This document shows positions 1,430-58,063 of a stretch of 64,000 nt of DNA, piece by piece (within the stretch, counting starts at the first letter, position 1; the number at the start of each line of letters is the position of its first letter). The notes under the pieces are model-generated. The model saw only the letters and a program-made list of their open reading frames with translations. It was not told the origin of the DNA and did no database searches. Source of the DNA: Isoperla grammatica (Eukaryota > Arthropoda > Insecta > Plecoptera > Perlodidae); contig OX246749.1 in the NCBI GenBank assembly GCA_945910005.1, positions 20,728,197 to 20,792,196 on the forward strand, written 5' to 3'. The position numbers and the translations under genes were made by a program.

Positions 1430-1575
1430 CCTGCCCAGGGACTGCCACCTTATCGTGGTGGGCAGGTTTGCGTGCTTTGTTGATCCCGAGAGCTATGCCG
1501 GCGGAAGCGTATGCTTCTGGTAGGGCCACCCAAGCCGGACTGGTCGAGGAGGAGAAGTCAGACGAAGTGCAGTCC
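1430..1575 (+). ncRNA. candidate HDV-like self-cleaving ribozyme, copy A
   Basis: Pairings that can be drawn: P1 CCTGCCC (1430-1436) with GGGCAGG (1460-1466), 7 bp; P2 GGACTGC (1439-1445) with GCAGTCC (1569-1575), 7 bp; P3 ACC (1447-1449) with GGT (1457-1459); L3 TTATCGT. J1/2 is two bases (AG) and P3' abuts P1', both as in HDV. The stretch before P2' is CGAAGT, giving a candidate catalytic C at 1563. The P4 region is long (about 95 nt) and I could not fold it convincingly. Cleavage before P1 would generate exactly the observed 5' end. Known HDV-like ribozymes head R2, RTE and L1Tc elements; activity here is inference. Confidence 0.6.
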
Positions 1576-6996: not shown

Positions 6997-7004
6997 TGAC
7001 TATA

Positions 7005-8720
7005 CAGTGGCGATGTCGCACACGCTATTCACATCGCGGACGGACAAGTTTATATACAGTGGCGATGTCGCACACGTTATTCACATCGCGGACGGACAAG
7101 TTTATATACAGTGGCGATGTCGCACACGTTATTCACATCGCGGACGGACAAGTTTATATACAGTGGCGATGTCGCACACGCTATTCACATCGCGGACGTA
7201 CAAGTTTATATACAGTGGTGATGTCGTACACGTTATTCACATCGCGGACGGACAAGTTTATATACAGTGGCGATGTCGCACACGTTATTCACATCGCGGA
7301 CGTACAAGTTTATATACAGTGGTGATGTCGTACACGTTATTCACATCGCGGACGGACAAGTTTATATACAGTGGCGATGTCGCACACGTTATTCACATCG
7401 CGGACGGACAAGTTTATATACAGTGGTGATGTCGTACACGTTATTCACATCGCGGACGGACAAGTTTATATACAGTGGTGATGTCGCACACGTTATTCAC
7501 ATCGCGGACGGACAAGTTTATATACAGTGGTGATGTCGTACACGTTATTCACATCGCGGACGGACAAGTTTATATACAGTGGTGATGTCGCACACGTTAT
7601 TCACATCGCGGACGGACAAGTTTATATACAGTGGTGATGTCGCACACGTTATTCACATCGCGGACGGACAAGTTTATATACAGTGGTGATGTCGTACACG
7701 TTATTCACATCGCGGACAGACAAGTGTATATACAGTGGTGATGTCGCACACGTTATTCACATCGCGGACGGACAAGTTTATATACAGTGGCGATGTCGCA
7801 CACGCTATTCACATCGCGGACGGACAAGTTTATATACAGTGGTGATGTCGTACACGTTATTCACATCGCGGACAGACAAGTTTATATACAGTGGTGATGT
7901 CGCACACGTTATTCACATCGCGGACGGACAAGTTTATATACAGTGGTGATGTCGCACACGTTATTCACATCGCGGACGGACAAGTTTATATACAGTGGTG
8001 ATGTCGTACACGTTATTCACATCGCGGACGGACAAGTTTATATACAGTGGTGATGTCGCACACGTTATTCACATCGCGGACGGACAAGTTTATATACAGT
8101 GGTGATGTCGCACACGTTATTCACATCGCGGACGGACAAGTTTATATACAGTGGCGATGTCGCACACGTTATTCACATCGCGGACGGACAAGTTTATATA
8201 CAGTGGTGATGTCGCACACGTTATTCACATCGCGGACGGACAAGTTTATATACAGTGGTGATGTCGCACACGTTATTCACATCGCGGACGGACAAGTTTA
8301 TATACAGTTGCGATGTCGCACACGTTATTCACATCGCGGACGGACAAGTTTATATACAGTGGTGATGTCGTACACGTTATTCACATCGCGGACGGACTAG
8401 TTTATATACATTGGTGATGTCGCACACGTTATTCACATCGCGGACGGACAAGTTTATATACAGTGGCGATGTCGCACACGTTATTCACATCGCGGACGGA
8501 CAAGTTTATATACAGTGGCGATGTCGCACACGTTATTCACATCGCGGACGGACAAGTTTATATACAGTGGCGATGTCGCACACGCTATTCACATCGCGGA
8601 CGGACAAGTTTATATACAGTGGCGATGTCGCACACGCTATTCACATCGCGGACGGACAAGTTTATATACAGTGGCGATGTCGCACACGCTATTCACATCG
8701 CGGACGGACAAGTTTATATA
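7005..8720 (+). repeat. minisatellite, 33 tandem units of 52 bp
   Basis: Unit boundaries (cagtgg) recur exactly every 52 bp from 7005 to 8669, giving 33 units to 8720. Units differ at a few fixed sites: ggCgatg/ggTgatg, tcgCaca/tcgTaca, acgTtatt/acgCtatt, and ggacGg/ggacAg/ggacGt. ggC units cluster at both ends and ggT units in the middle. Since 52 is not a multiple of 3 and no plus-strand frame has a stop, all three frames stay open and cycle through the same 52-codon peptide. Those frames lack any start context or domain and are not called as genes. Confidence 0.95.
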
Positions 8721-8734
8721 CCCCAGATGCGTTC

Positions 8735-8960: not shown

Positions 8961-9521
8961 GCTTATACTTGAGCTTGGGAAAACCACTTAGGCAAACCGT
9001 GGTTCTCCGGGTGTGTACTCGACTCCTCCCCTCCTTTTTCCACGTTGTTTCTAGTTGAATTTATGTTTACAAGTTCGTTAAGATTGCTCATGGTATTCTG
9101 TGTATTCGACAGCTTCAGACGTCCCCGCGCAGGGGGGAGGAAGGGAGGCGCTGTTTGGCTGCGGGTGGACGACCGAACCGATCGCCGTTCACGTTCGGGG
9201 TCGTTGGGCTTTTCCACCTGTTCTTCTGTGTTGCACGAATCTGTTCCAGAATTTGTATCGCCTATTGAGTCGTCATATTCCTCGCTGTCAGTCGTGTATT
9301 ATCATATCTTGAGATGCCGCGTCTTCTGTCGTCCTCTTTTTCTCGTCTTTTTTCTTCCTCTTCTAATTCTCTCTTCGTTTGCTCGGCCCAGTCCATGTTT
9401 GTGTTGTCGTCGCTGTGTATCTCGGTTCTGAAGTTCCCGGCCACGTCGGTTTCGTCGAGGCTTGGCGCTGCTGTAGTACTCTCTTTAGCGCTACTGTCGG
9501 GGGGCAGACTTGGCCTTCGTG

Positions 9522-10109
9522 CCTGCCCAGGGACTGCTACCTTATCGCGGTGGGCAGGTTTGCGTGCTTTGTTGATCCCGAGAGCTATGCCGGCGGAAGC
9601 GTATGCTTCTGGTAGGGCCACCCAAGCCGGACTGGTCGAGGAGGAGAAGTGACTTCTCCTCCTCGACCAGTCCGGCTTTGCCAATTTGTTCAAATTTAAA
9701 TTTATTGTACGATTTAACACAAACTATGGTACAAAAGATAAAATATGGTACATTTTAGCACTATGGTACGGTCACTATTTACTAAGGTACAGTAGATCAC
9801 TTTATGGTACGTTTTCCATAATTATGGTACGTCTGGCAACACTGGAAGTCAGACGAAGTGCAGTCCACACCTCAATCCCCTTCCCCCCCTCCCCCCCACT
9901 GTCCCATTGAATATTTCTCCTCCCACTTGGCCCTGCCCTCCCTTGCTAGACTCCCGTATGACGACTCACGCGACGTACAACGGATCTGATTCGGATGTGG
10001 CTTTATTCTTCATTATCATCTTTCTCATCTTCATTATCACCCGCTCATCGTCTCGATTAGCCATCGTTGCATAAATATGAGACGTTAAGCCCCATTAATC
10101 AATCAATCA
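9522..10109 (+). mobile_element. ribozyme-headed short retroposon, copy B, with internal insertion
   Basis: Same 5' and 3' ends as copy A, flanked by the 12-bp duplication ttggccttcgtg (9510-9521 and 10110-10121). It is longer because about 198 bp (9652-9849) is inserted between P1/P3 and the P2 3' strand. P1, P3 and the first P2 strand are intact at 9522-9558; the P2 partner lies at 9860-9866. It interrupts the LINE ORF1. Confidence 0.86.
9652..9849. repeat. snap-back insertion with phased TATGGTAC motifs
   Basis: The insertion opens with an inverted copy of the preceding 25 or so bases of the retroposon (spanning roughly 9626-9677), forming a near-perfect palindrome. It is followed by AT-rich sequence in which TATGGTAC, or one mismatch from it, occurs at 9725, 9744, 9762, 9783, 9803 and 9823, spaced 18-21 bp. 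It closes with ggcaacactgg. Confidence 0.7.
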
Positions 10110-10717
10110 TTGGCCTTCGTGGGGTTTCCAAATTATTGGTTGGTATCGGCACTAATGTGTTTCGGCGTTTGGGGCAGTCCTGCCGCGTGTGCTCGCTTTC
10201 GTTGCAAATCATGCAAGTTCTTGGTTGCCCATTATAGGTCACTAAACATTTTGTGCCTTGTATGTTAACGAACAAGGGCGCGTGCTGTTTAAGGTTGATT
10301 GAAACAGCGCGCACACCATTTTTCACAGGGTAGGGCATATTGCGGCCCCAAACTTCGTCGCTTACATGTGTTATTCTACCGTAACCTGACATTACGTTGA
10401 CTATGTCGCGGTTTGGCTTATCCACTGGATAATGGTGGACGCGTAGTGTCACCAGCCCATCTTCATTCGTTTAGTTCACCGTTCTCGTCTTCATATTTTA
10501 AATACTCTTGCCTTAGTCTCATGCATTTCTCTACCAGTAAGTTATTTATCAATTTCACATAGACCGTACCTTTGTGGCTGTCTAGTTGTATCGAGTCGAC
10601 TTGGTCGCAGCTAAATGCCAGTGTTTCTTTGATCCATTTATGGACGTTATATGCGGAAGGTAGTGGGTATATGTCTCGAAAACTGAGACCAATTGTGTTT
10701 TTCCTTGCGTTTTCCAT

Positions 10718-11046
10718 GTTCGGTTGTCTTGTATACACTAAGTTAAAGCTACCCCGAGATACACACACACACTATATAGCGCTCGCTTCAACTCGCTTAT
10801 CGCAACAACCTACCTCGACAGTGGTCGAGCTAGTACTGATTACTAGCAACAGATCGTTTGATTTGGCTCCAGACCATTTCAATAAGATTGAGTTCACAAT
10901 GGTATGGAGGCAATCGGAGAATTGTGTGACCTTGGCTTCTGACAATCTCATCAGCAGGACACTTCTTTTACAATGGCTTATGGCTTACTATTGCCATGAG
11001 TTCTGCTTTGATGCTAACAACATCAAACAATACGTTGATACAATAC
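10718..11046. other. no gene recognised
   Basis: Sequence upstream of the LINE ORF1 start, with a short CA run at about 10763-10773 and then unassigned sequence up to the 29-bp array. Confidence 0.4.
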
Positions 11047-12583
11047 AATGATAACTGTACGGTATGGCGCGTTACAATGATAGCTGTACGGTATGGCGCG
11101 TTACAATGATAACTGTACGGTATGGCGCGTTACAATGATAACTGTACGGTATGGCGCGTTACAATGATAACTGTACGGTATGGCGCGTTACAATGATAAC
11201 TGTACGGTATGGCGCGTTACAATGATAGCTGTACGGTATGGCGCGTTACAATGATAACTGTACGGTATGGCGCGTTACAATGATAACTGTACGGTATGGC
11301 GCGTTACAATGATAACTGTACGGTATGGCGCGTTACAATGATAACTGTACGGTATGGCGCGTTACAATGATAACTGTACGGTATGGCGCGTTACAATGAT
11401 AGCTGTACGGTATGGCGCGTTACAATGATAACTGTACGGTATGGCGCGTTACAATGATAACTGTACGGTATGGCGCGTTACAATGATAACTGTACGGTAT
11501 GGCGCGTTACAATGATAACTGTACGGTTTGGCGCGTTACAATGATAACTGTACCGTATGGCGCGTTACAATGATAACTGTACGGTATGGCGCGTTACAAT
11601 GATAACTGTACGGTATGGCGCGTTACAATGATAACTGTACGGTATGGCGCGTTACAATGATAACTGTACGGTATGGCGCGTTACAATGATAACTGTACGG
11701 TATGGCGCGTTACAATGATAACTGTACGGTATGGCGCGTTACAATGATAACTGTACGGTTTGGCGCGTTACAATGATAACTGTATGGTATGGCGCGTTAC
11801 AATGATAACTGTACGGTATGGCGCGTTACAATGATAACTGTACGGTATGGCGCGTTACAATGATAACTGTACGGTATGGCGCGTTACAATGATAACTGTA
11901 CGGTATGGCGCGTTACAATGATAACTGTACGGTATGGCGCGTTACAATGATAACTGTACGGTATGGCGCGTTACAATGATAACTGTACGGTATGGCGCGT
12001 TACAATGATAACTGTACGGTATGGCGCGTTACAATGATAACTGTACGGTATGGCGCGTTACAATGATAACTGTACGGTATGGCGCGTTACAATGATAACT
12101 GTACGGTATGGCGCGTTACAATGATAACTGTACGGTATGGCGCGTTACAATGATAACTGTACGGTATGGCGCGTTACAATGATAACTGTACGGTATGGCG
12201 CGTTACAATGATAACTGTACGGTATGGCGCGTTACAATGATAACTGTACGGTATGGCGCGTTACAATGATAACTGTACGGTATGGCGCGTTACAATGATA
12301 ACTGTACGGTATGGCGCGTTACAATGATAACTGTACGGTATGGCGCGTTACAATGATAACTGTACGGTATGGCGCGTTACAATGATAACTGTACGGTATG
12401 GCGCGTTACAATGATAACTGTACGGTATGGCGCGTTACAATGATAACTGTACGGTTTGGCGCGTTACAATGATAACTGTACGGTATGGCGCGTTACAATG
12501 ATAACTGTACGGTTTGGCGCGTTACAATGATAACTGTACCGTATGGCGCGTTACAATGATAACTGTACGGTATGGCGCGTTAC
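11047..12583 (+). repeat. minisatellite, 53 tandem units of 29 bp
   Basis: The unit aatgataactgtacggta + tggcgcgttac repeats every 29 bp for 1537 bp, exactly 53 units. Variation is sparse: gatAgctg at about 11077, 11222 and 11396; ggtTtgg at about 11525, 11757, 12452 and 12510; and taCcgta at about 11551 and 12537. The ggtTtgg/taCcgta neighbour pair occurs twice, about 985 bp apart, which suggests a block duplication. There are no spacers, so it is not a CRISPR array. Confidence 0.95.
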
Positions 12584-12659
12584 AATGACAATTGTTTTCT
12601 TCATTGTATCAGCATTTTTCTTCCACTCCCACATTGCAAGCCTCGGCTTAGGAGACACC

Positions 12660-22458: not shown

Positions 22459-23570
22459 TTAAAACAGATGCCCGTTTAACGTATCCATATCAAGTTTTGC
22501 AAAATTTCGTCTAAGTTGAGTTGCACACGGATTTATTTCCCCTAATTGGTCACCATGAGGCATAGAAAATTCCACTATTTCATGGTCTGAGAGTCTTGGC
22601 TCACCAAGCACAGTTACTGTTTGTTCATGGTTATTTGTAATAACCAGGTCAATTAACGATTTAGTACCTCTTTCATAGCGTGTAAGATTTTGGCCCACCT
22701 GTTTCATGCCTAGAAATTCAATTGTTTTTTTAAATTTATGACTGTACGTCTCTGATTTTAACATATTAATATTAAAGTCACCTGTTATGAAAATTGATTC
22801 TTCCATTTCACATTTATTTTCACACCACTGCTCAAAAAAATTTAAAAATTCACATTTACTAGATGCTGGTGACCTGTAGAAGACTGCCACATAACATATT
22901 TTCTTCAGTCTTTGTGATGACTCTCCTATCCCTTCGATAGCAAGGAAAAGGAACCAATATTTGTCTTGTACTCCTCCCCTGTCCATCTCCTTATATTTCA
23001 CACCGTTCTTAATATATATTGACACACCACCAGTATGTCTGCTGTTTGATTCACACCTGATTTCCGAGTAGTTATGTATTGTTGTTTCACATAGTTCAAT
23101 GTCACTGGTTATTCTTGTTTCTGTGAGGCAGAGAACATGCGGATTGCTTGTTGTCACAAATTGTGAAAGGTCATATATTATGTTTTTTGTTAAACTTTGG
23201 ATATTTAAGCCTGCCCAAGGACTGCTACCTTATCGTGGTGGGCAGGTTTGCGTGCTTTGTTGATCCCGAGAGCTATGCCGGCGGAAGCGTATGCTTCTGG
23301 TAGGGCCACCCTAGGCGGACTGGTCGAGGAGTAGAAGTCAGACGAAGTGCAGTCCACACCCCAATCCCCTTTCCTCCCCTTTCCTCACGCGTCCTCCTAC
23401 TTGCCCCTTTCCTCCAAAGAGCCTCCAATTTTATCTTCATCATCACCCACTCATCGTCTTGATTAGCCTAGTTGCAAAACTATAAGACGTTAAGCCCAAA
23501 TATCTATCTATCTGGATATTTAAGCACACCATTTTCAAAATCTTGGAACTGTGTTCACCCTTTAACTGCT
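22459..23570 (-). pseudogene. LINE endonuclease, split by retroposon copy C
   Basis: Blocks: VCLNIQSLTKNI (23525-23570 side), then after the retroposon VLCLTETRI (catalytic E), GGVSIYIKNGVKY, VAVFYRSPASS, SIFITGDFNINML (D-x-N) and LGEPRLSDHEIVEF (S-D-H). All six positions expected of apurinic-type LINE endonucleases are visible. The reading continues in one frame across the retroposon if that insertion and one duplication copy are ignored. No RT follows. Confidence 0.85.
23210..23512 (+). mobile_element. ribozyme-headed short retroposon, copy C
   Basis: 303 bp, starting CCTGCCCAAGGACTGC and ending in ATCT repeats. The 12-bp duplication tggatatttaag lies at 23198-23209 and 23513-23524. P1, P2 (second strand 23349-23355) and P3 are conserved, while the C between P2 and P3 is T. 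The internal part is shorter and more diverged than copies A and D, and the 3' tail is ATCT rather than AATC, so it may belong to a sister subfamily. Confidence 0.87.
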
Positions 23571-40827: not shown

Positions 40828-43800
40828 GTAAATAAGTAAATAAAGAAAGAAACAAACAAACAAATAAACAAACAAACACATAAATAAATACATACATAAA
40901 TAAATAAATAAATATAAATAAATAAATAAATAAATAAATAGACAATATACACACCCAGCATACTGAAACACCAGGAGAAAATCCATCAGAAACATCAACA
41001 AATATTTACAAAAAGTTCAAAAATATGTACCGGGTAGGTAAAAAAAAAAAAAAAAAATAGACATACAGTAGGCGTACCGAGGTAAGTTTGAATCAAACTA
41101 AAGTAATCTGAATTAGCAAACAAAAAATGCATGCTGAAAGCCAGATTTGTGAGAGTGGGCAAGTTGAACGTGCAAGCAAGCGCAACCACGCGCGTGCAAA
41201 CGTGCGCAAGTTGTTGGGCGAGTGGGTTCAGTTGAAGGATTTTAATTTAAACTAATATAACTACTAATAATACTAAAAGCCCAATTGCAAGAAGAGGAGT
41301 AGGCCTATAGGATGTTGTTAGCATTGCTCAGAAAGGGAGAAAACACTTGCTGAATAAATAGATATCGGTACTTACTAGGTTAAAATCCCTCAAGTGCGGA
41401 TATCTGTCCACAATCCCAGTGATATTGTTGGCAACATTCACAACCCAATCTCGACGACTGGTTGTTGTTGCCATTAGTAGCTGCCTTACATATGTTGTGT
41501 CCTTGACAGCTTTTGCACTTGCTTTAGCCAACTGAGCTTCACACGCTTTTTGGTCCACAAGTCCATGACCTCCTGCACTGAGCCTGTAACATGTTACATA
41601 AAGAAGAGAATTGTGTATACTAGTAAACACCACACTTGATCTTCAATTTCAATATAAATTCAACTGCTACCCCCCCCCCCCCCCATTCCCCCCAGAAAGA
41701 TACCATTATATTGTGTATTTAATGATGCTTCCTAAATCTTGTAGTGTAACTACATGATTGAAAAGACTAATGGCCCACTTGCTTTTTTCAAATAAAAAAC
41801 ATACATATATTAATGTATAAATGTAGGTGTCTTACTTACGTGGTGCTATCTGTAGAAGTGGTGGCTAGCTCGAGGGTGTTGGTACTGCTAGCGCTACAAT
41901 TTGTGGTTACAGAACCACAGAAAAGTAACTTTTTTGAAGAACAATTTTTGCCATTGGCTGTATAAAAGCGCTTGTTTCGGATACAATTGCTCAATTGTTT
42001 CTTGAAGTAAGCCTAAAAGATTTGGTACAGTATTATAATAGCTCAGTTGCAACAGTAGGCATAGCTTCCTTCTTTCCCCAAACACAATTAAATAATATCA
42101 TCTATCATGTTTCATCAACTGTTACACCTTGCAATAGTGTTTTATTGATGATGTTCAGTAGTACCTACAAATTTCATGTTTTACAAGACACTAAAAATTT
42201 GTCAAATCAGATCCATCATGCATAAGGGGTTGTTATTAAAGTTGGCCAACCTACTCATACTTTTATAATGGCATTATAATGGCACTTTTATAATGCAACT
42301 GTAAATTGAATATATATTTATATTTTATTAGTTGGTAATATATCGTTTGGACCTACAAATAAAACACTATAACTTATATTTAATCTAATTTTTTTATGGA
42401 TTGACTTAACTTCATGAAAAATCAAAGTAGACCTTGCTACACACAGGACATTGGTAAAACATGTACGCAACATGAAGTTGGTTAACTTACGTAAGGCTTT
42501 AGTGGCGAATGGCGATCCTGGATCTCAGGATACGCCTCGGCTACAGTCTTGCAATACGCGGCGTACTGGAGGCTTGTTGGCCGAGCAACAATGGAGATAA
42601 TGTGGTTCCCACATTCTCTCACAAAAGCATTCATGTGCTTTAACATGCCTCCTGTTCGAATAGCTGTTGCCAAATTGTTGCTCAAAGTGGGCAATGGAGT
42701 TGGGTACAACAACTTTCTACATGTTGATAGGGGGTCCTATAAAAGCAAACATTGTTTGCATTTTTTAAACACTCAATTTTTTTACACACGTAGTCCAGTA
42801 CCGGTACATGTGCAGTTAGACCTAGTGGGTCAAACATTGAAATAGCACGAAAAAACTAATTTTTTCTACAAATTAAATGGTACAGGTTGCAGTTAGAGTA
42901 AACAATCAATGTATATTCTTAAAAATACAAATCCTGCCCAGGGACTGCCACCTTATCGTGGTGGGCAGGTTTGCGTGCTTTGTTGATCTCGAGAGCTATG
43001 CCGGCGGAAGCGTATGCTTCTGGTAGGGCCACCCAAGCCGGACTGGTCGAGGAGGAGAAGTCAGACGAAGTGCAGTCCACACCCCAATCCCCTTTCCCCC
43101 CCACTGTCCCATTGAATATTTCTCCTCCCACTTGGCCCTGCCCTCCCTTGCTGGACTCCCGTATGACGACTCACGCGACGTACAATGGATCTGATTCGTA
43201 TGTGGCTTTATTCTTCATTATCATCTTTCTCATCTTCATTATCACCCGCTCATCGTCTCGATTAGCCATCGTTGCATAAATATGAGACGTTAAGCCCCAT
43301 TAATCAATCATCAATCTTAAAAATACAAATTTATGTTTTGGTACATAAGATATGAGTTTGTATAGCCTAAGTAAAACAATATGGAATGTTATTTATTAAC
43401 TTACAGAAGTCTTTTGTGTTGTGGGCCCATGGCTTTCCTGGATCTCCATCACCGGAAAGAAAGGAGATTCAGCGGAATGGTTTTCGGTGTTTTCGTCCAC
43501 CTTATCCAAATTCTCTGGTACAGTTGTATGTTGAACCGGTGCCAGTACATTTACTCTGCAATCTAATACCACGATATTGATTTCACTCCTTATCAGGTAG
43601 GCCAAAGACCAGTGCACATAACTATAGAAATAATTTTGGTGGGGTAGGAACTAGGAAGTAAGGGAATAAATTTTGTTACTTCATGATTTTTAGACGCAAG
43701 ACAACTCGAGGGATTAATCTTTGTCCATGGCATTACTAATGGTTACTATAAGGCTAGTATTGTACTGAACCCGCGCAATGTTTAAGGGGGGATAGTAATA

Positions 43801-45816: not shown

Positions 45817-47514
45817 TTATACACACAGTCTCTCGACAAGTTTGTTATGTTTAATTTTTCCAAGTCCCTTGGTTAATACGTCGGCTACCATTTCTTCCGA
45901 ACTTACATGATTTAACACAAGATACTTCTGTTCAATGTACTCTCTAATTCTATGGTACCTTACATCCATGTATTTAGTTCTGCCACCAGCACCTGTGTTC
46001 ATCGCTATCTTTTGCGAACTTTGATTATCATTATAAAGGGTTATACAATCTGATTTTCCAAATAATTCTTGAAGTAAATTTTTCAAATACACAGCCTCAT
46101 CTCCAGCATCGGAAAGAGCGACATATTCAGCCTCAGTGCTGTGTTTTGTTACAATTCTTTGTTTTTTGCTTTCCCAGGACACAGGTCCAGTACCAACCAT
46201 AAACACAAAACCAGTATATGATTTTCGATCAGATACATCATTAGCCCAGTCAGCATCTACATAACCATAGATATGATTATCAGATGCTGTAAAGCGCAAA
46301 TGATAGTCCTTTGTCCCTTGCAGATACCGCAACACTCTTTTTGCTGCCTTCCAATGAGCTTCAGAATGAGCAGTGTTGAACTGGCTCAAATAACTTGCTG
46401 CACAGGCTATATCTGGCCTTGTACACACAGCCAAATACATTAAACATCCCATTAAATGTTGATAGGGAACATTTACGCTCTCATTAGGAGTTATTACTTC
46501 TAGTTTAACACCAGGATCGAGAGGAGTTGAGACGGGATTACAATCCAACATGTTGAAACGTTCTAGGACATTACATACATACTGTTTTTGACTAACTCTA
46601 ATTTCACCAGTAATCTTGTCCCTTTGAAATTCCATTCCCAAACAGTGTTTCAACTCTCCAAGATCTCTTATTTTAAATTCTTTTGACAAACAATTTTTCA
46701 GTTCAGTTTTTGCAGTACGGTTATTAGAAAACACTATAAAATCATCAACATAAAGAGCAATGATAACAATGCCTTCTTTGTTATTTTTAATGTACACACA
46801 TGGCTCTAACTTAGATCTACTAAAGCCTAAGTCAACCAAAATTTGATGTATTTTTATATTCCATGCTCTTGAGGCTTGTTTGAGACCATAAATAGCCTTT
46901 TTTAATAAACATACCTTATTTTCCCCCTGAATGTCGAGACCTTCAAGTACTTCCATGAAGACAACTTCTTCCAACTCTCCATGTTGAAAAGCTGTACTCA
47001 CATCTAGGTGATCAACATTCAATTTTAAACTCGCTGCTAAGCCCAGTAACAGTCTAATTGTTGAGTATCTCACAACCGGAGAGAAAGTCTCTTTGTAGTC
47101 TATACCCTCTTGTTGTGAAAAACCTTTTGCTACGAGCCTAGCTCTATGCCTTTCAACAACTCCATTGGGTCCTCGTTTTATTTTAAAAGCCCATTTGTTT
47201 TTAACTACGTGTGCATCATTAGGCCTATCCACTAATTCCCATGCATTGTTGTCACACAAGGATTTTAGTTCATTTTCCATGGCTATTTTCCACTTTTCTT
47301 TGTCTTTACCCGAAAGGGCTTGTTTAACCGTTTCTGGTTCACCTAACTCTGGTTGAGATTCAACCACATGATATGCGATAAAGTCCGGAAACTGTTTAGG
47401 TGTATGAACCCTACCAGTACGTCTAACTTCTGCAGGTTCCGCATCTCTCCCGACAATTATTGATTCGTGACATTCTCCATTATCTGATTCTGCATCTGCC
47501 TCGGAGGCTTCACT
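45817..47514 (-). pseudogene. copia #2 Pol: reverse transcriptase and RNase H
   Basis: Blocks in order: NAWELVDRPNDAHVVKNKWA, ARLVAKGFSQQEGIDYKETF, DVSTAFQHGELEEVVFME, LLKKAIYGLKQASRAWN, the catalytic LYVDDFIVF, then RNase H with YVDADWAND, SWESKKQRIV and STEAEYVAL. This part (up to the stop at 45817) is an intact reading frame, about 565 residues; the element as a whole is dead because the nested insertion separates it from integrase. Confidence 0.92.
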
Positions 47515-47527
47515 TTGACCTGACCCC
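47515..47527. repeat. 13-bp target duplication, left copy
   Basis: ttgacctgacccc, repeated at 58051-58063, marking the insertion of the I-type LINE into copia #2. The copia reading is continuous when one copy and the insert are ignored. Confidence 0.92.
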
Positions 47528-47577
47528 CCGGTCGAGGTGGGTCCCTCCTCGTGGTGACCGGTGCCCGCATAGAGGGC
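47528..47577 (+). ncRNA. candidate HDV-like fold at LINE 5' end (5' half)
   Basis: CCGGTC (47528-47533) pairs with GACCGG (47556-47561) as a 6-bp P1 starting at the first base of the LINE. GGTGGG (47536-47541) can pair with CCCACC (52408-52413) as P2, and AGAGGGC (47571-47577) with GCCCTCT (52387-52393) as P4. A 7-base L3 (tcctcgt) matches the size in the short retroposon. P3 is weak (two pairs). The partners are now 4.8 kb away because of the LTR insertion. Confidence 0.35.
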
Positions 47578-47643
47578 TCTCGTGCACATCTTTAATCATC
47601 ACTTGCTTCATTTCCCCTTCATCGTCCTTTCTCTTCTTACTTT

Positions 47644-48764
47644 TGAGACGGTACAGGCTTGTCCCACACGGCTTGGGTGTTCTTAGAGCCATATGCGCGT
47701 CAAGTCAAGGGAAACCTCTCAGAAGGGTATCAGTTTTCTAAATTATTTGACATTTTTAACGACGGTCTGGTATTTGTCTTGGAGGGGAGGTCAGAGGTTG
47801 TTACCACGCCGAGGGTGAGAACTTCCACTTCAAGGCAAAGTTCCAGGCTAGTCCATTTTTAGGCCACTACACCCCCCTAGTTAGGGTAAACCAAATTCAA
47901 AATCTTCTATGACGTAACAATAAATGAGCCTTCTGATTGGTCGCCCTAAGAACACAGGGGCAAGTTGGTAGCCGGAGTCCTGAGGGACGAAGGACAGAAC
48001 GAAGACGGCCTTTGGTCGAATAGGTCGGTTTGAGAGAACGTAAGGCGGCCGCTGGCCGGGGAATAATACCGAGACAATGGCCGGTGAGCCGAGTGCGTGT
48101 GAGTGTGCGGACGTGTTGTTTAAGTTAAAATAAAAATTAGTCTAATAATAAGAAACAGCAAATTAATTAATACGTTAACATAAATGAAGAATAACAACAA
48201 ATAATACCCAATAATACAACAATCACGCAATTATAGAACTATCGGCAATTATAGACAATAGACGACAACACCAAAGACAATTAACCAACCACGCTCTCCG
48301 ACTGCATCTACCTAATCGTCATCGATCATCATCATCACCATCACAATCGCTGTCAACCAAGCCATCTCCAGCCAACAACAGCACAGGTATCGTTACTACT
48401 TTTTTTACCATACTATGGCCATAGGGAGGTAGATTAGTACTAACGATATTTCTTCCAGATGTTTTTCTTTTTTCATTCATGTTTGTTTATGTATTTCATT
48501 TTCATTTTATGTGTAACTTTTAGTGTAATTTGTGTCAATTAATTAAACAGTAACATTTATATTTTATACAATTCTATTTTTTTAATTTCCATATCCTACA
48601 ACCATAATCTCATATTTTATTTAAGCAACAACAACTTTTCATATATTTTTTGTGCTCTACCAACAACCCAAAGTTGAGCTAGCTGAGGGTTTGTTTTTCT
48701 AATTGTTTTCATTGTTTTCTTTTCATTTCATTTTATCATGTTTTCATTTATCCGTACTGTCTCA
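47644..48764 (+). repeat. left LTR (1121 bp)
   Basis: Same length as the right LTR; differences are single bases, for example gtgaGaac/gtgaAaac and ccgGgg/ccgAgg. Confidence 0.92.
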
Positions 48765-48766
48765 AA

Positions 48767-48784
48767 TGGCGCCTTGCAACGTGT
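48767..48784 (+). promoter_or_regulatory. putative primer-binding site
   Basis: tggcgccttgcaacgtgt starts two bases after the left LTR. TGGCGCC is the usual first half of Gypsy/retroviral primer sites; the specific tRNA is not determined. Confidence 0.55.
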
Positions 48785-49058
48785 GGCGTGAATCGTAAAA
48801 ACGTATGGGGTCCGATTCACCGCCCAAGATTTATGTTATCTTGTTAATTTTGTATTTTGTTGTTGCAGTATATTTTTATAAAAAGGTTGTAGTGATATAT
48901 TAAACATAAATATTGTAACGAATTGTGATTGTGTTAAGATTAATCATTGTATTTAACGAGCCTTGTAATGTCTTTGTCATATAAGTTGGTAACGAGTGAA
49001 TAAGTAATTGTAGTTTAATAATTGATTTTTTTATAAGAAGTAAAGTTAATTTGAAACA

Positions 49059-49709
49059 ATGGCAGTGAAAAATGGGGAGCTGTTTATGCTCTTAAAGGAA
49101 TTAAAGAAGGATATGAATGACAACACGGAACAGTTAAGAATCGATAATCAGCAGTTAAGAAACGATTTGACAGATAACGTGCGAAGGTTAGAGAGTAAAA
49201 TGGATAATAATGCAGAACAGTTAAGAAAAGATATGAAACAATTCATTGAGGAGTTAAGAAACGATAGGAAGAAGTTTAAGGAAGAGTTAAAAGAAGTAAT
49301 AGTAGAGTGTAAGAATGAGATGCATGAAGTAATCTATGGAAGTAAGGAAGGTAAAAATAAAAGTGTTGAGATAGTAAGTGGCGAATTAGAGTCAAAGATA
49401 AGCGAAGTAGATTCAAGTGTTAATGTGTTGGGGAAGAAAGTAAACGTAGATAAGGGAAAGAAAAGTAACTTCAGTTTAAGGAAAGTAAAGAGGTTGAGGA
49501 AAGGTAAGAAGTTGCGTAAGTTAAAGAAGTGCGGATCAAGTAAGAAAAGAAGTAGAAAGAGAGAGCTAAGGAAGAGAAGTGTTAAATTCAAGAAAGTAGA
49601 GGTAAAAAGGAATAAGGAAAGGCGGGAAAGGAGTAGTGAGAATGTGTCTATTTGTCGGAGTAAGAAGAAATTTAACCCGTTAACTTTCCAAGGTGGTACG
49701 ATAGAGTAA
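49059..49709 (+). CDS. gag-like coiled-coil basic protein of the LTR element
   Basis: 216 residues, ATG in a good context (acaATGG). Residues about 1-105 form a long coiled coil with a repeated E-Q-L-R-x-D pattern (NTEQLRIDNQQLRNDL, NNAEQLRKDMKQ). Residues about 140-205 are extremely basic (RKVKRLRKGKKLRKLKK). It ends NPLTFQGGTIE. There is no zinc knuckle and no known domain. The layout suggests an RNA-binding structural protein of a non-autonomous element. The frame is intact. Confidence 0.65.
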   Translation: MAVKNGELFMLLKELKKDMNDNTEQLRIDNQQLRNDLTDNVRRLESKMDNNAEQLRKDMKQFIEELRNDRKKFKEELKEVIVECKNEMHEVIYGSKEGKNKSVEIVSGELESKISEVDSSVNVLGKKVNVDKGKKSNFSLRKVKRLRKGKKLRKLKKCGSSKKRSRKRELRKRSVKFKKVEVKRNKERRERSSENVSICRSKKKFNPLTFQGGTIE

Positions 49710-51235
49710 ATAAAATCCCGGATGTGACAAATAATTTGCGAGGATGTGCTCCATAAGAGACGAGCGAGTTATTTTGACGAAAGTGGCGATCAAGTAGAGT
49801 TTAGGCCGATTAACAATAGATTAAATAGCGTACGTAATTGTGTTAATTTTAGTTTACGTATTTTGTGTTATGTAAGATGTTTTGTAAACAGCGGGCTGTG
49901 AGCTTGGTTTCGGGGGGTCGGTCTTAGAGGGGTCGTTCAAGGTCAGAGCCTTCAGCTCGCAAACAGATGTTTTTTTGTGTGTGTTGGTGTTACGGTTTCT
50001 GGCACGAGGGGGAGGTAGGACGTATTTGAAGAAATTAGAGACGTAGAGTTCGTTCGCGCTAAGAATTGGGTTTTAAAAGGTGTCATATGGAAGTTTTGTT
50101 AATTTGGAAGTCGTTTAAGTTGGTATTTTGAGAGGAAGTGCAAGGTTTTGTTTGTCAAGTTTCATTGTTTTAAGAGGAGGAGTTCATTTCGGATGTGCGA
50201 TAAGGTTTATGAGGGGTGGATGAGGTAGAATGAAGTTTTATTAATGGAAGTTTAATTTTCAACAGGTTTCGAGTTTTATTTTGGTTAATCGTGAGGTGAG
50301 GGGTAGTTTTCATTTCAATTCAATAAAAGTAATTTAAAAAATTAAATGAATTCGTCTTGTGCGAAATATAAATAAATTGGCGGATGAGTTAGGGTGATAG
50401 TTGTGAAGGTCATTTCAGTTTTAATTGGTAGTAGTTGAGTTTTGTTCATTTAACGTCAAGTCTGTGAGGAAGTGTGGTAATTGTTTTTGACTGTTCGTGG
50501 GTAACTATGGGTAGACTGTTGAGTGGTGGTTAGTATAGCGTGCGTTTTTTATTTTTTTTTGTGCCAACAGATTCTTTTCTTGCACTCACCGGTAGAGAGG
50601 CCGTACTGAGATTTAGTTTTTATGAACAATCTGTTGTGTCGTAATTAATTAATTGGAATAGCGTACGTTTGGTGGTGTTTTTCTTCGTGGGTACCGCTAA
50701 CAGGTGCTATCATAGTGTACTCAGAGCAGAGGTAAAAAAGTAACTGGTTGTGGAGTCATGTTGTAAACTGGAACGATTATTGCCTGAGCCATTCATTTAT
50801 TTGTTGTTCATACAAGAGGGTTTCAAACTGTTGTCACATGTGGAAATAATTTGGTCAAGTGTTGAAAAACAGATGTAAGAAAGAATGTGGGAGAGATTTG
50901 GGTGTGAGACCACAAAAAAAAGTAGGGTCTAGAGGAGGGGTAGTTGTTAGCATTTTACGACGACCCTGTCCGAACAGCCACGTGCCGTTTAAAGAGCTAG
51001 ATGTATAGTGTGATCGTGGTAAGGAGTTTACAGCTCCAACTTTTAATTGTAATCCAACTTAGCATAATGCAAATATTATAATAACTTTAAGTATCATCCT
51101 TGTACTAATTCATAATTAACTTGTAATCGATATGTATTAATTTTAACTTCAATTTTTTGTAATTTTTAAGATTTTTCACTTAAATGGAATATAATTAATT
51201 ACACGTTGTGGTATTTAATTATATTCGAGGGGTAT
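49710..51235. other. interior of the LTR element, no further gene
   Basis: No protease, RT, RNase H or integrase motif seen in any frame. GT-rich on the plus strand. A weak purine tract (gaggggtat) precedes the right LTR. Confidence 0.6.
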
Positions 51236-52356
51236 TGAGACGGTACAGGCTTGTCCCACACGGCTTGGGTGTTCTTAGAGCCATATGCGCGTCAAGTCAA
51301 GGGAAACCTCTCAGAAGGGTATCAGTTTTCTAAATTATTTGACATTTTTAACGACGGTCTGGTATTTGTCTTGGAGGGGAGGTCAGAGGTTGTTACCACG
51401 CCGAGGGTGAAAACTTCCACTTCAAGGCTAAGTTCCAGGCTAGTCCATTTTTAGGGCACTACACCCCCCTAGTTAGGGTAAACCAAATTCAAAATCTTCT
51501 ATGACGTAACAATAAATGAGCCTTCTGATTGGTCGCCCTAAGAACACAGGGGCAAGTTGGTAGCCGGAGTCCTGAGGGACGAAGGACAGAACGAAGACGG
51601 CCTTTGGTCGAATAGGTCGGTTTGAGAGAACGTAAGGCGGCCGCTGGCCGAGGAATAATACCGAGACAATGGCCGGTGAGCCGAGTGCGTGTGAGTGTGC
51701 GGACGTGTTGTTTAAGTTAAAATAAAAATTAGTCTAATAATAAGAAACAGCAAATTAATTAATACGTTAACATAAATGAAGAATAACAACAAATAATACC
51801 CAATAATATAACAATCACGCAATTATAGAACTATCGGCAATTATAGACAATAGACGACAACACCAAAGACAATTAACCAACCACGCTCTCCGACTGCATC
51901 TACCTAATCGTCATCGATCATCATCATCACCATCACAATCGCCGTCAACCAAGCCATCTCCAGCCAACAACAGCACAGGTATCGTTACTACTTTTTTTAC
52001 CATACTATGGCCATAGGGAGGTAGATTAGTACTAACGATATTTCTTCCAGATGTTTTTCTTTGTTCATTCATTTTTGTTTATGTATTTCATTTTCATTTT
52101 ATGTGTAACTTTTAGTGTAATTTGTGTCAATTAATTAAACAGTAACATTTATATTTTATACAATTCTATTTTTTTAATTTCCATATCCTACAACCATAAT
52201 CTCATATTTTATTTAAGCAACAACAACTTTTCATATATTTTTTGTGCTCTACCAACAACCCAAAGTTGAGCTAGCTGAGGGTTTGTTTTTTTAATTGTTT
52301 TCATTGTTTTCTTTTCATTTCATTTTATCATGTTTTCATTTATCCGTACTGTCTCA
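51236..52356 (+). repeat. right LTR (1121 bp)
   Basis: Matches the left LTR over its full length; followed by the 4-bp duplication cttt (52357-52360) and the rest of the LINE 5' UTR. Confidence 0.92.
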
Positions 52357-52360
52357 CTTT

Positions 52361-52842
52361 CATTACCTTCTTCTTCATCCGTGCCGGCCCTCTTTGCGAT
52401 CCAAACGCCCACCAGTCCCCCCTCCCCCAAAAATAGTTCGTTTACGGCTTGTTCCCCTGATGACGACCCTTGCAATGATTAGGTTATGATTCGACTCTCT
52501 GATTGATTTGACAGCACTTGGGCTTGGGCACAGATTGCGTCGGTTGTATGCCCAGTGCAGGAGGTCCCTCTAGGCACCGTCCCAGGGCCGGGGGCCAACT
52601 GCACTGTTAGAAGGCTGATTGCGTCTGTGTCCCATCCGGACGTGAAATTAGCACTTTCCTACATACCTCCTGATGCACGCAGAAATCGTTAACTGGCTCT
52701 ACTTCATGAATGGTGTATGTTGTCATGTCTAGCTGCCCCATGAAATAGACCCTGTTACGTTTACAAGGCCCTATGTGGTAGAACCAACACGGGTTAGTTG
52801 AGTCTGTCATTCCAGGAAACTTTTGTAGGTTGTCTCCAATCA
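52361..52842 (+). other. I-type LINE 5' UTR, second half
   Basis: Continuation of the sequence at 47528-47643. Holds the possible P4' and P2' strands (52387-52393, 52408-52413) of the candidate ribozyme and a C-rich tract (52415-52430). Confidence 0.6.
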
Positions 52843-54249
52843 ACCATGGCTTCCAGCACAAACCACGCCCCTGGGAACCCCCCTCCCCCTTCAATCTCAT
52901 ACTCCCACGCTAATAAAAGCAACAAACGTCCCCGATCTTTGTTTGACACCCCGATCACGCTAGATACCGTTCTCAAATCATTTACTTCTACTGAAACACT
53001 GCCACGATTCTTTGTTATTCAACGAGAGGACGATAAATCCTTCCTTACAGAGTCGCCCTTCGTTATTGTCAAAGCTCTTCAATGCATTGCAGGCACCGTA
53101 AAAAATGCCAGAAAACTACGTAATGGCACTATTCTAGTGGAAACGACTTCTGATAAACAATCCGAACTATTATCCAAGGCAACGTCATTTGGCAATCGTT
53201 ACAACGTATCGGTTAAGCCTCACACCAGCTTAAACACATCTAAGGGAGTCATAAGATGTCCCGATTTATTGTACGCAAGCGATGATGAGATAAAAGAAGA
53301 ACTTGCCTCCCAAGGTGTTATTGATTTGTACCGTATCAAATCACGCATCGATGGTCAACTTAAGCCAACCGCCACAATTATTGTCACCTTCAGAACTCCC
53401 AAACTCCCGAACAAAATAGTTGCTGGTTTCCACATCCTGGACGTTAAAACGTACGTACCTAATCCCATGAGATGTTTTACCTGCCAAAGATTTGGTCATA
53501 CAAATAACCATTGTAACAATGCGCCTACTTGCCGGGTTTGTGGACTTGATTTCCATGAAGACACTGCCTGCACATCCCCAACAAAATGTGTCAATTGCCA
53601 AGGCCCCCACATTGCCTCCTCCCGAGATTGCCCAAAGTGGATCGAGGAGAGGAAAATACAAGAAATAATGGCCCTAGAACGTGTCTCAATCGCTGAAGCA
53701 AAACGTAGGTACAACGTTATGAAGCCACCGACAAACCTACCTTTTTCATTTGCCCATGTTGTCGCCAGCCAACATGCAGAATCAGCGGCTCGCAATGTAA
53801 TTAAAGACGACGAAAACGCTCAACTTAAGGAGACTATCAAGACGCTGCTTGAGGTTCAAAAACAACTGCAAACACAACTTGCCGAACAAGCCGAGCAAAT
53901 AAAAGAACAGCGTGACCAAATCCAGGAACTGATATCGATCATTAAACAAAAAGAAACGCCTGATTTGACGAAAGAGACTGTTAAAGGAAACCACGAACAA
54001 AGAAAACCTGCACCAGAGTGTATTAAACCAAACCCCGAACAGAATACCAAGGGCAATTCGAAATCTAGGCGTCTGAAAAGGACCCCACAAGCTCCCATTC
54101 ACGGATCCTTTTGGCAGAAGGTAGGCGGTAGTCCGTACGCTTCATCACTGGAAGATGACTTGATCAGTGATGAGATGATGGACCAAGACCCCGCGTCACT
54201 AGCTTCATCTCAGTTTTTTAAGAAAGGAACAAACAAAAAGAAATCTTAA
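52843..54249 (+). CDS. I-type LINE ORF1 (gag-like, three CCHC knuckles)
   Basis: 468 residues from ATG at 52843 (MASSTNHAPGNPPPP); an in-frame ATG 15 codons upstream (52798) is possible but less likely given the context. After an RNA-binding region come three knuckles: CFTCQRFGHTNNHC, CRVCGLDFHEDTAC and CVNCQGPHIASSRDC. A coiled coil rich in Q and E follows (KQLQTQLAEQAEQIKEQRDQ) and a basic tail. ORF1p packages LINE RNA and acts as a nucleic-acid chaperone. The frame is intact. Confidence 0.88.
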   Translation, partial: TMASSTNHAPGNPPPPSISYSHANKSNKRPRSLFDTPITLDTVLKSFTSTETLPRFFVIQREDDKSFLTESPFVIVKALQCIAGTVKNARKLRNGTILVETTSDKQSELLSKATSFGNRYNVSVKPHTSLNTSKGVIRCPDLLYASDDEIKEELASQGVIDLYRIKSRIDGQLKPTATIIVTFRTPKLPNKIVAGFHILDVKTYVPNPMRCFTCQRFGHTNNHCNNAPTCRVCGLDFHEDTACTSPTKCVNCQGPHIASSRDCPKWIEERKIQEIMALERVSIAEAKRRYNVMKPPTNLPFSFAHVVASQHAESAARNVIKDDENAQLKETIKTLLEVQKQLQTQLAEQAEQIKEQRDQIQELISIIKQKETPDLTKETVKGNHEQRKPAPECIKPNPEQNTKGNSKSRRLKRTPQAPIHGSFWQKVGGSPYASSLEDDLISDEMMDQDPASLASSQFFKKGTNKKKS

Positions 54250-54289
54250 AAAACTTAACGAAAGATCGAAGTTTTATTAAAGCTTTAAC

Positions 54290-57200
54290 ATGGATGTTTT
54301 ACTGCAGTGGAACGTAAGAGGTTATTTTACGCGGTCTGAAGAGATCAAGCTTTTAACCTCCAAGGAAAACCCCACTATTTTATGTCTGCAGGAAACCCAT
54401 TTTAAAACAACCGACAACCCAAGGCTACGTGGCTATACATTTTACAGATTTGATGACGACTCGGGAGAACGGGCTCAGGGAGGAGTTGCTACCATCATTC
54501 ACGACAGCATCTATGCAGAACACTTACCTCTCACAACACCTTTGCAGGCGGTAGCTGTCAGAGTAGCTTTTCCCAGCCCAGTTACTCTATGCAACATTTA
54601 TCTTTCACCCACGACTGTGATATCTAAAACTCTAGTCACAAATCTTTTAAATCAACTACCACGTCCTTTTATTATTCTTGGAGATTTTAATGCACACAAT
54701 ATTTTATGGGGGAGCAGAACATGCAATCCAAGGGGTGTTTTTTAGAAGAGGTTTTAATATCTCACAACTTGATTCTCCTCAATAATGGAAAACCAACCCA
54801 TTTTAGCACTGCAAATGGGTCTTCCTCATCAATAGATCTGACCATTTGTTCACCATCCGTTGCACTTGACGTCGAATGGGACGTCTTGCTGGATCTCTGT
54901 GGAAGCGACCATTTCCCAATAATGACTTATTTATTACACCAGATTGAAGTCAGGCAGAGAGCTCCCAAGTGGGACTTGAAACGAGCCAACTGGGACATGT
55001 TTAAGAATCTGGCTGTTTTTAACGAATCCTTATTCATTAACATACAGGACCATGTGGATCATGTCACAAACACCATCATCTCCGCCGCCAGATCCACCAT
55101 TCCACAAACATCAATTCACCCTCTGCGACTTCCAGTTCCATGGTGGAACAACGAATGTAAAGAAGCAATTAAAAGTCGACGCAAAGCCTTAAAAAGGTTC
55201 AATACATGCCCAACCGAAGAGAACCTTACCGTATTTAGGAAATTACGGAGTAAAGCCAGGTTCATTATAAGACAATCCAAAAGGCAATCTTGGCACACAT
55301 ATGTGTCTTCAATCACCCACCATACACCCTCCTCAAGAGTTTGGGACAAAATTAGAAAAATATCTGGCAAGCACACCTGTTTAAGCCCTTCTGGCGTCAA
55401 GGTCAATAACCAAATCGTCACTAGTCAGATCGACATCGGTAATGCATTCGGTCAGCATTATGCACAAGTCTCCAGTTCATCGCACTACACAACAAAATTC
55501 ATCGAACATAAATCGAAGGAGGAAAGGAAGACGTTGAACTTCTCCTCCAATAACGATGAACAGTACAACCATCCCTTCTCAGATCACGAATATTTCTCGA
55601 TATTAAAAGATCTGAAAAACAACGCCCCCGGTCCTGATTTTATTCATAACGAAATGCTCAAACACCTCTCATGTTCATCTCATCAGTATATCCTTAATAT
55701 GTTTAATCGGATGTGGCTTGAGGATGTATTTCCTGAATCCTGGCAGGAAGCCATAACTGTACCCATTCTAAAGCCAGGTAAACCCAAAGAAGAACTCTCA
55801 AGTTATAGGCCGATATCATTAACAAGTTGTCTGTGCAAATTATTTGAAAGGATGATAAATAGAAGATTGATGTGGTTCCTAGAGAGCAAAAACCTCATTG
55901 CACCCGAACTTTCACCACCCGATCTGTTGCTTTGCACCCGATCTGTTGTGGTCATCTAGCCCGGCTAGAGAATTACATTCAAAACGCATTTTTATTAAAA
56001 CAACACGTGGTGGCGATCTTTTTCGATTTAGATAAAGCATACGACACCACGTGGCGACATGGTATTTTAAAAACTCTACATGACTGGGGAATAAGGGGCC
56101 ATTTGCCCAATTTTATCACAAATTTTTTATCCAACAGACAATTCAGAGTCCGAATCGGCAACTTTTTATCCGGACAATTTTATCAAGAAAACGGTGTTCC
56201 CCAGGGATCGGTTTTAAATGTGATATTATTTACAATATCAATCAACAGCATTGTTTCCTACGTTAAAAAACCAGTCAAGTGCTCACTGTTTGTCGATGAT
56301 TTCGCAATATTTTTTAAAGCCGCCTTTTTAAGTTCAATAGAGCGTCAACTTCAGATGAACATCAGAAGACTAGAAAAATGGGCTGACGAAACGGCTATAA
56401 ATTCTCGGTTTTAAAAACAACATGTATTCACTTTGGCCGTCGTCGTGGAATCTGCTCGCATCCAAATCTAAAGATGGGAGGTCAAGACCTATTGTTTTCA
56501 GAAGTTGCCCGCTTCCTGGGAATGCTTTTTGACACAAAACTTAATTGGAAACCACATCTACAACAACTTAAATTCAAATGCTCAAAGTCTATGAATATCC
56601 TACGAATACTCAGCAATACAACCTGGGGGGCAGACCGCACCGTCATGCTCCGGTTATACCGTTCTCTTATTAGGTCAAAACTCGATTTTGCTAGTTTTAT
56701 ATACGCTTCAGCAAGACGCTCATATCTCAAAACCTTGGATACAATACACCACACAGGGATCAGATTGTCAACGGGTGCTTTTAGAACCAGCCCTATCCCC
56801 AGTCTGTATTGTGAGTCCGGAGAACCGTCGCTGTCGTCCAGGAGAGACTATCTACTACTTAGCTATGTCGCCTCATTGGCGGGGTCACCTAAGAACCCTG
56901 CCTACGACATAATATTAAATCCACCATACCAAGACCGTTACGCCATTAGACAGAAGACCACTCGACCAGCAGGTATTCGATCCCTTGAACTAATGGAATG
57001 TCTAGATATTACCCCACCTCTTGTTTTTACCAATTCTTTTGCCGCTGTCCCGCCATGGACGATCAGTATGCCCAAATGCATCACTCAAATGTCAGTATAC
57101 AAGAAAAACACTACATCCTGCTTGCAATATCAAGCAATGTTTAATCAAATTCGTTCCCTATACTCCGATCACGAATGCATTTTTACAGATGGGTCGAGAA

Positions 57201-57982
57201 TCGAGGACTCGGTCGGCTGCGCTTTTATTACTGACAATGAAAAGTTTTTATTCCACCTAGACTCACTTTTTAGCATTTTTAACGCGGAACTCTTCGCAAT
57301 CATGCAAAGTCTTTTATATGCCGTTCGAAGCAAGACATCAAAGTTTTTAATATGCACCGACTCTCTGAGCTCTCTTCAGGCACTTTTAGAAGTATATGCT
57401 AGGCACCCATTGGTTGTTAAAATTCAAACAATTTTATCGAAACTTTTAGCCAAACGTAAGTCCATAGTTTTTTGTTGGGTTCCTGGTCATGCAGGCATTC
57501 TTGGTAACGAGGTGGCAGATCGATGTGCTAAGGAAGCCTGTACCACTGACAGCAACGACTGCCAATTAGTTATAACTGCGGACCTGAAAGCGTCTTTTAA
57601 ACTTAAATCAAACACGCTATGGCATAACGAGTGGCAGAGCATACGAAACAACAAACTAAGAGAAATAAAAGACTCCGTAACTCCATGGCTATCCTCCCGG
57701 CGCTCGTGTCGCCGCGAGGAAGTTGTTTTAACTCGCATCCTAATCGGCCACACCTATATTACTCAGAGCTATCTTCTAAAAAGTGAACCCCAACCAGTGT
57801 GTGATGCTTGTAATGTGACATTGACTGTCAAACACATAATTTTAGATTGTGCAAAGTATTTAGCCGAACGACAAAGATATAAGTTAAAATCCACACTAAT
57901 AGAAAACCTGTCAGATAAAACTGACGCAACCGACAACATTATAAAGATCCTTAAATCAATTAACCTTATGAACAAGATTTAA
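54290..57982 (+). pseudogene. I-type LINE ORF2: endonuclease, RT, RNase H; three breaks
   Basis: Endonuclease: LLQWNVRGYFT, CLQETHFK (E), GGVATIIHDS, IILGDFNAHN, CGSDHFPI (S-D-H). RT: APGPDFIHNEML, PKEELSSYRPISLTSCLCKL, VVAIFFDLDKAYDTTW, GVPQGSVLNVILF, the catalytic FVDDFAIFF, then RFLGMLFDTKLNW. RNase H: CIFTDGSRIED (D), FNAELFAIM (E), ICTDSLSSL (D) and HAGILGNEVAD (H...D). A C-terminal C-x2-C...H...C knuckle (CDACNVTLTVKH) follows. Breaks: a one-base shift at about 54735, a scrambled short duplication at about 55905-55955, and a one-base shift at about 56398. Confidence 0.92.
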
Positions 57983-58050
57983 ATGGGGAAAATAGGCACT
58001 GATAACCCAGATGTTTTGTGCCTTTAAACCACAAATAATAATAATAATAA

Positions 58051-58063
58051 TTGACCTGACCCC
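58051..58063. repeat. 13-bp target duplication, right copy
   Basis: ttgacctgacccc directly after the AAT tail of the LINE. Confidence 0.92.

Follow-up and report, generated by a model that had tools for sequence, protein, structure and literature searches.

The stretch of DNA analysed here, referred to as the window, comprises 64,000 nucleotides of the 874-Mb genome (603 contigs) of Isoperla grammatica. BLAST detected four copies of a short element in it, at 1430, 9522, 23210 and 42933, all on the forward strand and all beginning with CCTGCCC. The first copy, c1 (1430-1805), consists of a head (1430-1575), a body (1576-1722), a tail designated tail A (1723-1796) and a short simple repeat, and it has both target site duplications (TSDs) and ~99% identical copies. 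Its 12-bp TSD, CCAAGTACCATA, is present at 1418-1429 and as an identical 12-mer at 1806-1817; as it flanks both ends of the copy, the first base of the head is also that of the element, in agreement with the initial annotation, which had placed the start of P1 at the first base past the target duplication. Copy c2 (42933-43314) is flanked by the 16-bp TSD TCTTAAAAATACAAAT (42917-42932 and 43315-43330), and copy c3 (9522-10109), in which P4 is split by an insert, by the 12-bp TSD TTGGCCTTCGTG (9510-9521 and 10110-10121). Copy c4 (23210-23512) has a different body with tail A and the 12-bp TSD TGGATATTTAAG (23198-23209 and 23513-23524). The boundary between element and TSD is unambiguous at 1430, 9522 and 42933, and is uncertain by one base at 23210 because the target has a C there too. 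The insert in c3 (9651-9844, 194 bp) contains a 29-bp inverted copy of the P4 arm of the element followed by a TATGGTAC-rich stretch, and a short duplication of ~5 bp lies at its ends.

These elements have several traits of SINEs: they are short and non-coding, have TSDs and carry a tail common to other retroposons. No pol III B box was found in any of the four window copies with two mismatches allowed, ARAGORN called no tRNA, and neither these scans nor Rfam recognised a tRNA-, 7SL- or 5S-derived head of the kind that marks classical SINEs. An open frame crosses c1, and a protein search with it returned no relative. Elsewhere in the window there are two satellite arrays at 7001-8721 and 11044-12595 (52-bp x 33 and 29-bp x 53), the first of which begins just past the (TTAC)n tail of a LINE. 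A Ty1/copia-type element on the reverse strand (45817-60294) was identified by eye; it is apparently split by a LINE with a (TAA)n tail, also placed by eye (~52.8-58.05 kb), and by a stretch that has 1,122-bp direct repeats of 99.2% identity at its borders (47643-48764 and 51235-52356).

Read directly from the sequence, the possible pairing elements of the head at 1430-1575 follow the order of HDV, P1-P2-P3-P3'-P1'-P4-J4/2-P2', a nested pseudoknot (CCTGCCC-AG-GGACTGC-C-ACC-TTATCGT-GGT-GGGCAGG from 1430, then ~95 nt, then CGAAGT-GCAGTCC to 1575). The 5' strand of P1, CCUGCCC (1430-1436), forms seven Watson-Crick pairs with GGGCAGG (1460-1466), and cleavage is predicted just before C1430. J1/2 is AG (1437-1438), with AA, AT or AC in other copies, and is followed by the 5' strand of P2, GGACUGC (1439-1445), which forms seven Watson-Crick pairs with GCAGUCC (1569-1575). 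An unpaired C1446 separates the strands of P2 and P3, the latter being a 3-bp helix of ACC (1447-1449) and GGU (1457-1459) that abuts P1' without a gap. The 7-nt L3, UUAUCGU (1450-1456), has U1450 in first and G1455 in sixth position, which is the HDV-like U/G spacing. The P4 domain of ~95 nt (1467-1562) was folded by RNAfold as a branched stem, and J4/2 is CGAAGU (1563-1568), or CGAAAU and CGAAAG in older copies. A CNRA-type stretch is therefore present, with C1563-GAA followed by GU and then P2', and C1563 is the putative catalytic C. P1.1 is weak, consisting of one Watson-Crick pair (A1452-U1467) next to a U-U mismatch (U1451/U1468).

The U and G of L3, which form a reverse wobble, are described as conserved in HDV-like ribozymes in the accessible text of PMC3774820; both are found here (U1450 and G1455), their spacing having been compared with the consensus of Rfam family RF02682. 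The analysis confirms that 1430-1575 has an HDV-like fold and that this fold lies exactly at the 5' end of the members of a short, TSD-flanked retroposon family. All of the parts that had been described for it beforehand are present (P1 and P2 of 7 bp, P3 of 3 bp, a 7-base L3, a two-base J1/2 and CGAAGT), and the suggestion that C1563 may be the catalytic C is supported by its position at the opening of the CGAA in J4/2, although the role itself is putative.

The probability of such a fold arising by chance was assessed with a whole-fold descriptor (7+7+3 bp with G-U allowed, and CNRA), the loop-length ranges of which were chosen after the fold was known. Among dinucleotide shuffles of 1430-1625 the descriptor was satisfied at base 1 in 0 of 20,000 and in 5 of 200,000. 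Across the window the plain descriptor gave six matches on the forward strand (1429, 1430, 12476, 23209, 23210 and 42933) and three on the reverse, some of which are due to chance, and in 12 shuffled windows it gave 17 forward-strand matches altogether. When the L3 U/G was added only 1430, 23210 and 42933 were left, each of them the start of a copy, with none on the reverse strand; the same descriptor gave no match in ten of the 12 shuffles, one match in one and two in another. The copy at 9522 escapes the descriptor because the 194-bp insert lengthens its P4. An earlier, looser descriptor had scattered chance matches too.

The nearest Rfam ribozyme model is RF02682; in each of the four copies in the window its alignment begins exactly where the element does. 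The scores (16.6, 16.6, 15.8 and 19.0 bits, against a gathering score of 44) are comparable to those that unrelated Rfam families reach there, one of them with 17.6 bits, so by score alone RF02682 is no match. No family was found by Rfam at gathering score across the whole window. A covariance model built from three copies matched the four window copies only, and found nothing in 200 kb of another chromosome (C1).

Core differences among the four window copies are limited to J1/2, J2/3 and the last base of L3, and pair counts for three of them show no covariation. In a set of 46 heads, the columns of P1, P2 and P3 that vary are paired with columns that do not, and even C1563 and G1564 are altered in single copies. 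A base other than G at P1 column 33 occurs in 182 heads, and in 115 within the 33-place pattern; among the 100 listed of these 115, column 5 is C in 97, a compensating T in one and an unpairing A in two. In one of 19 single-copy loci (L083) there is a T-A pair at the altered P1 site, amid other mismatches. The copies with an altered P1' were considered as new lineages for covariation and turned out to be decayed. Compensatory changes, by which the initial annotation had proposed to check the fold, are therefore nearly absent from P1 (one in the 100 listed copies changed at column 33), but as the altered copies are decaying fossils little compensation is to be expected and the test is a weak one. 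The recurrent J4/2 differences of older copies come after CGAA (GU, AU or AG). The other outcome that had been named as counting against the fold, a family consensus in which P2 does not pair, was not observed: by our own reading of the alignment P2 is paired in each of the four copies in the window, and 13 of the 19 older, altered copies retain the complete helix. A competing structure does exist: run without constraints, RNAfold predicts a structure of -54.7 kcal/mol in which J4/2 is paired with 1472-1480. The ribozyme fold comes to approximately the same (-44.0 for its nested helices and -11.4 for P2), with the cost of the pseudoknot ignored.

A DNA search of the genome found at least 41 copies at ~99% identity, with 40 of 489 candidates scored. 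The dinucleotide TA, which precedes nearly all of the copies listed, was considered as a target rule and rejected, since the query itself carried TA and only 40 of the 489 candidates were scored; other bases were seen in less biased sets. A TSD abuts the element in 33 of 43 full copies (fetched loci plus the window, one place being counted twice and one mismatch allowed), a set that is biased by the upstream bases of the query. In some of the other ten, an abutting TSD is missing because a few extra bases separate it from the element. Extra bases of this kind, seen by eye in the 5' flanks of L016 and L041, are as expected for run-off additions by a reverse transcriptase. A set free of the upstream-base bias contains 23 copies, namely 19 loci and the four in the window. 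Eleven of these have a TSD of at least 9 bp, and all eleven begin at the first C of the element with no extra base; of the remaining 12, two have 8-bp matches with five and one extra bases, and for ten no TSD was found.

The genome was also searched with a head pattern that combines the 5' strands of P1 and P2, P3, L3, P3' and two P1' bases, with no A allowed in the two preceding bases. This pattern covers the 5' half of the head, P2' and J4/2 lying outside it, and it matched 1,979 places in the 874 Mb whereas the reversed control matched none. All nine of the allowed preceding dinucleotides occur among the 100 matches listed, showing that the shared sequence stops at the first C. Together, the number of places and the varied upstream bases indicate ~2,000 or more head starts with a sharp 5' boundary at this base. 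Pieces of the family that are truncated at the 5' end occur as well.

The tail of c1 (GTCTC...GAGACGTTAAGCCC, 1723-1796) is not confined to elements with this head. In the 200 kb of C1 no full ribozyme head was found, and there are two 5'-truncated copies of the ribozyme family, whilst the 3' tail occurs four times (two of these occurrences do not differ over the stretch displayed). Upstream of the tail these C1 elements carry GGTTCGAATCC or AGTTCGAATCC, a motif that resembles the B box of tRNA-derived SINEs; no tRNA was called on them by ARAGORN, and they are probably tRNA-headed. The tail of c1 matches that of one B-box-bearing element at 84% over 74 columns and that of another at 76% over 72. 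Tail A contains a hairpin with stem strands at 1751-1756 and 1781-1786. One of its C-G pairs is U-A in four of the 63 copies matched, and half-changed forms are absent, so that the hairpin is supported by one pair; 56 of the 63 have C-G throughout, and the remaining three show a single change, in the adjacent pair. The change to U-A was probably one inherited event.

The head itself was found in three combinations. It is joined to a C/T-rich body and tail A in c4, L080, L086 and L090 (by eye), to a C/T-rich body and a second tail, tail B, in L074, L077 and L078 (the tails of which match one another at 79-91% over 22-43 nt), and to the c1 body and tail A. A segment of the c1 body (1595-1697) is in turn shared, at 77% identity across 110 columns, with a further SINE-like family, the third in this set (L016 2312-2058), which is 255 bp long and has its own TSD, TCCGATACAAAA. 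The head of this third family is a 68-bp unit, CCCGTC...GTCGTAAGAGGCGAC, that is present twice in tandem at 63847-63985 of the window and for which Rfam gave chance-level matches only; its tail is 82.5% identical over 40 nt to tail B of L074. The bodies and tails shared among these families indicate that head, body and tail have been recombined. Tails A and B were seen on SINE-like elements only, and no LINE with either of them was found in the sequence searched, which comprised the window, the fetched loci and the 200 kb of C1. At L093 (C14:36580001-36581100), 156-bp units made of a diverged head of the ribozyme type are repeated in tandem, with five P3-L3 motifs.

HDV-like ribozymes occur at the 5' ends of LINEs. 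Fish RTE-type LINEs presumably have a 5' region with similar letters around P3/L3 and in P4; a scan of viral contigs and a literature search returned nothing in support of this likeness. If it holds, such LINEs would be the source of the head, and the family would be novel only as a new derivative. Self-cleavage at the 5' end is described as established for R2 in the available portion of PMC3774820, and for L1Tc-type elements in that of PMC4035085. The analogy with R2, L1Tc and NARTc that had been drawn for this locus is supported. Two features that had been regarded as unusual have precedents in the same sources and in PMC3414825, as far as their accessible text goes: SINE-sized elements with an HDV-like ribozyme include the R2 and R2/R1 SIDEs of Drosophila (PMC3414825) and NARTc/RIME of trypanosomatids (PMC4035085), and a long or variable P4 is already present in R2 ribozymes (PMC3774820).

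The R2 and R2/R1 SIDEs are the nearest precedent. According to the accessible sections of PMC3414825, SIDEs are short LINE derivatives described as rare, in which a ribozyme head is followed by a 3' end from the same LINE or from a different one, and which are mobilised in trans. The present elements resemble them in being short, in having a head like an HDV ribozyme and in a 3' end that is probably of LINE type, and the hybrid SIDEs likewise have their head on the tail of another element. Unlike these R1/R2-derived elements of the rDNA, as characterised there, the copies of the present family are dispersed and their TSDs vary; it has no fewer than 1,979 head starts and a tail common to B-box-bearing SINEs; by analogy it would be their dispersed counterpart. 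NARTc, RIME and SIDER of trypanosomatids (the excerpted text of PMC4035085) are also short non-autonomous retroposons begun by an HDV-like ribozyme, but their 77-nt Pr77 head is also a promoter, and the P4 of the present family alone is ~95 nt.

In our own reading, the consensus of RF02682, the HDV-like ribozyme of F. prausnitzii (HDV-F-prausnitzii), has a 7-bp P1, P3 of ACC/GGU, a 7-nt L3 UCUaCGU with U first and G sixth, and a CNAAG J4/2, all of which are similar to the head described here; it is however a bacterial model of 74 positions with a small P4, and the present scores lie far below its gathering score. Metazoan non-LTR retrozymes (PMC7761336, accessible part) are SINE-like elements with a self-cleaving ribozyme, but as described in that part they have hammerhead ribozymes and circular RNAs, whereas here there is one HDV-like ribozyme per element at the exact 5' end. 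Peripheral domains tune HDV-like ribozymes, and those studied in the available text of PMC4908430 lie in J1/2, whereas the large domain in the present family is P4. What the open-licence literature searched yielded were SIDEs, elements of trypanosomatids and retrozymes with hammerhead ribozymes, and a dispersed SINE of animals headed by an HDV-like ribozyme was not among the results; searches with the motif letters returned unrelated papers only, as judged from titles and the starts of abstracts. Scans of genome contigs for the head motifs found none. In viral contigs, 13 stretches matched head motifs without ribozyme context and were taken as chance, and other motif scans gave 0.

We consider it probable, with good confidence, that the family is a SINE-like, non-coding, non-autonomous retroposon with an HDV-like self-cleaving ribozyme as its 5' module. 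Under the proposed mechanism, a copy of the element would be transcribed inside a host transcript, and the head would fold into P1-P2-P3-P4 and cut just before C1430, so that the RNA begins at the first base of the element. A LINE that also acts on the B-box-bearing SINEs with the same tail could then supply the reverse transcriptase, which would recognise the tail hairpin and short repeat, and target-primed reverse transcription would produce a copy with a TSD of ~9-18 bp, an exact 5' end and its own cutter. Processing of the 5' end by self-cleavage, as in R2 and L1Tc-type elements, would be the simplest account by analogy. It is supported by the presence of the full core fold at the TSD junction and its rarity in shuffles, by the RF02682 alignment from the first base in four of four copies, by the start at the first C in all 11 copies with a TSD of at least 9 bp, by the sharp 5' boundary among the 1,979 places, by the confinement of core differences between the window copies to J1/2, J2/3 and the last L3 base, by the absence of a B box or tRNA in the window copies and by the retention of the head in three combinations. 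What counts against it is the absence of covariation, the RF02682 scores of 15.8-19.0 bits against 44, the weak P1.1, the fold of about equal energy and the failure to find a LINE with either tail in the window, C1 stretch and fetched loci.

A precise RNA 5' end would on its own give an equally uniform start, and an internal or downstream promoter in the head could begin the RNA at C1430, with the fold acting as a 5' hairpin for stability or reverse transcriptase binding. The hairpin of P1 plus P3 is indeed stable in RNAfold without P2, and the Pr77 head, in the accessible text of PMC4035085, is promoter and ribozyme both. We nevertheless think this unlikely, since it does not predict P2 in register with the CGAA of J4/2 or the L3 U/G spacing, and the window copies are without a pol III B box. 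A capped RNA start often leaves an extra G at 5' junctions, and there is no extra base at the 11 junctions with a TSD of at least 9 bp among the 23 unselected copies. We regard it as more improbable still that the resemblance is a matter of chance or a relic, with the head being an inherited LINE 5' UTR of other structure (a long J1.1/4-J4/2 helix) and no ribozyme activity. The alternative RNAfold structure, the lack of covariation and the low Rfam score all agree with such a relic, whereas the fold arose at base 1 in only five of the 200,000 shuffles, the start of P1 coincides with that of the element, and the head is kept in three combinations of body and tail.

A broader reading, on which we are evenly divided, is that the HDV-like head acts as an independent 5' module, able to pass between elements, and takes the place of a SINE's pol III promoter. 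Within a single genome, one LINE-type tail would then serve both B-box (probably tRNA) and ribozyme heads, several bodies and tails would have been joined to the head, and approximately two thousand or more copies would need only a transcribed landing site for release and recopying. If true, a self-cleaving RNA can stand in for the promoter in a SINE-type parasite, the transcription of such elements becomes testable, and the family would provide a large natural set of ribozyme variants.
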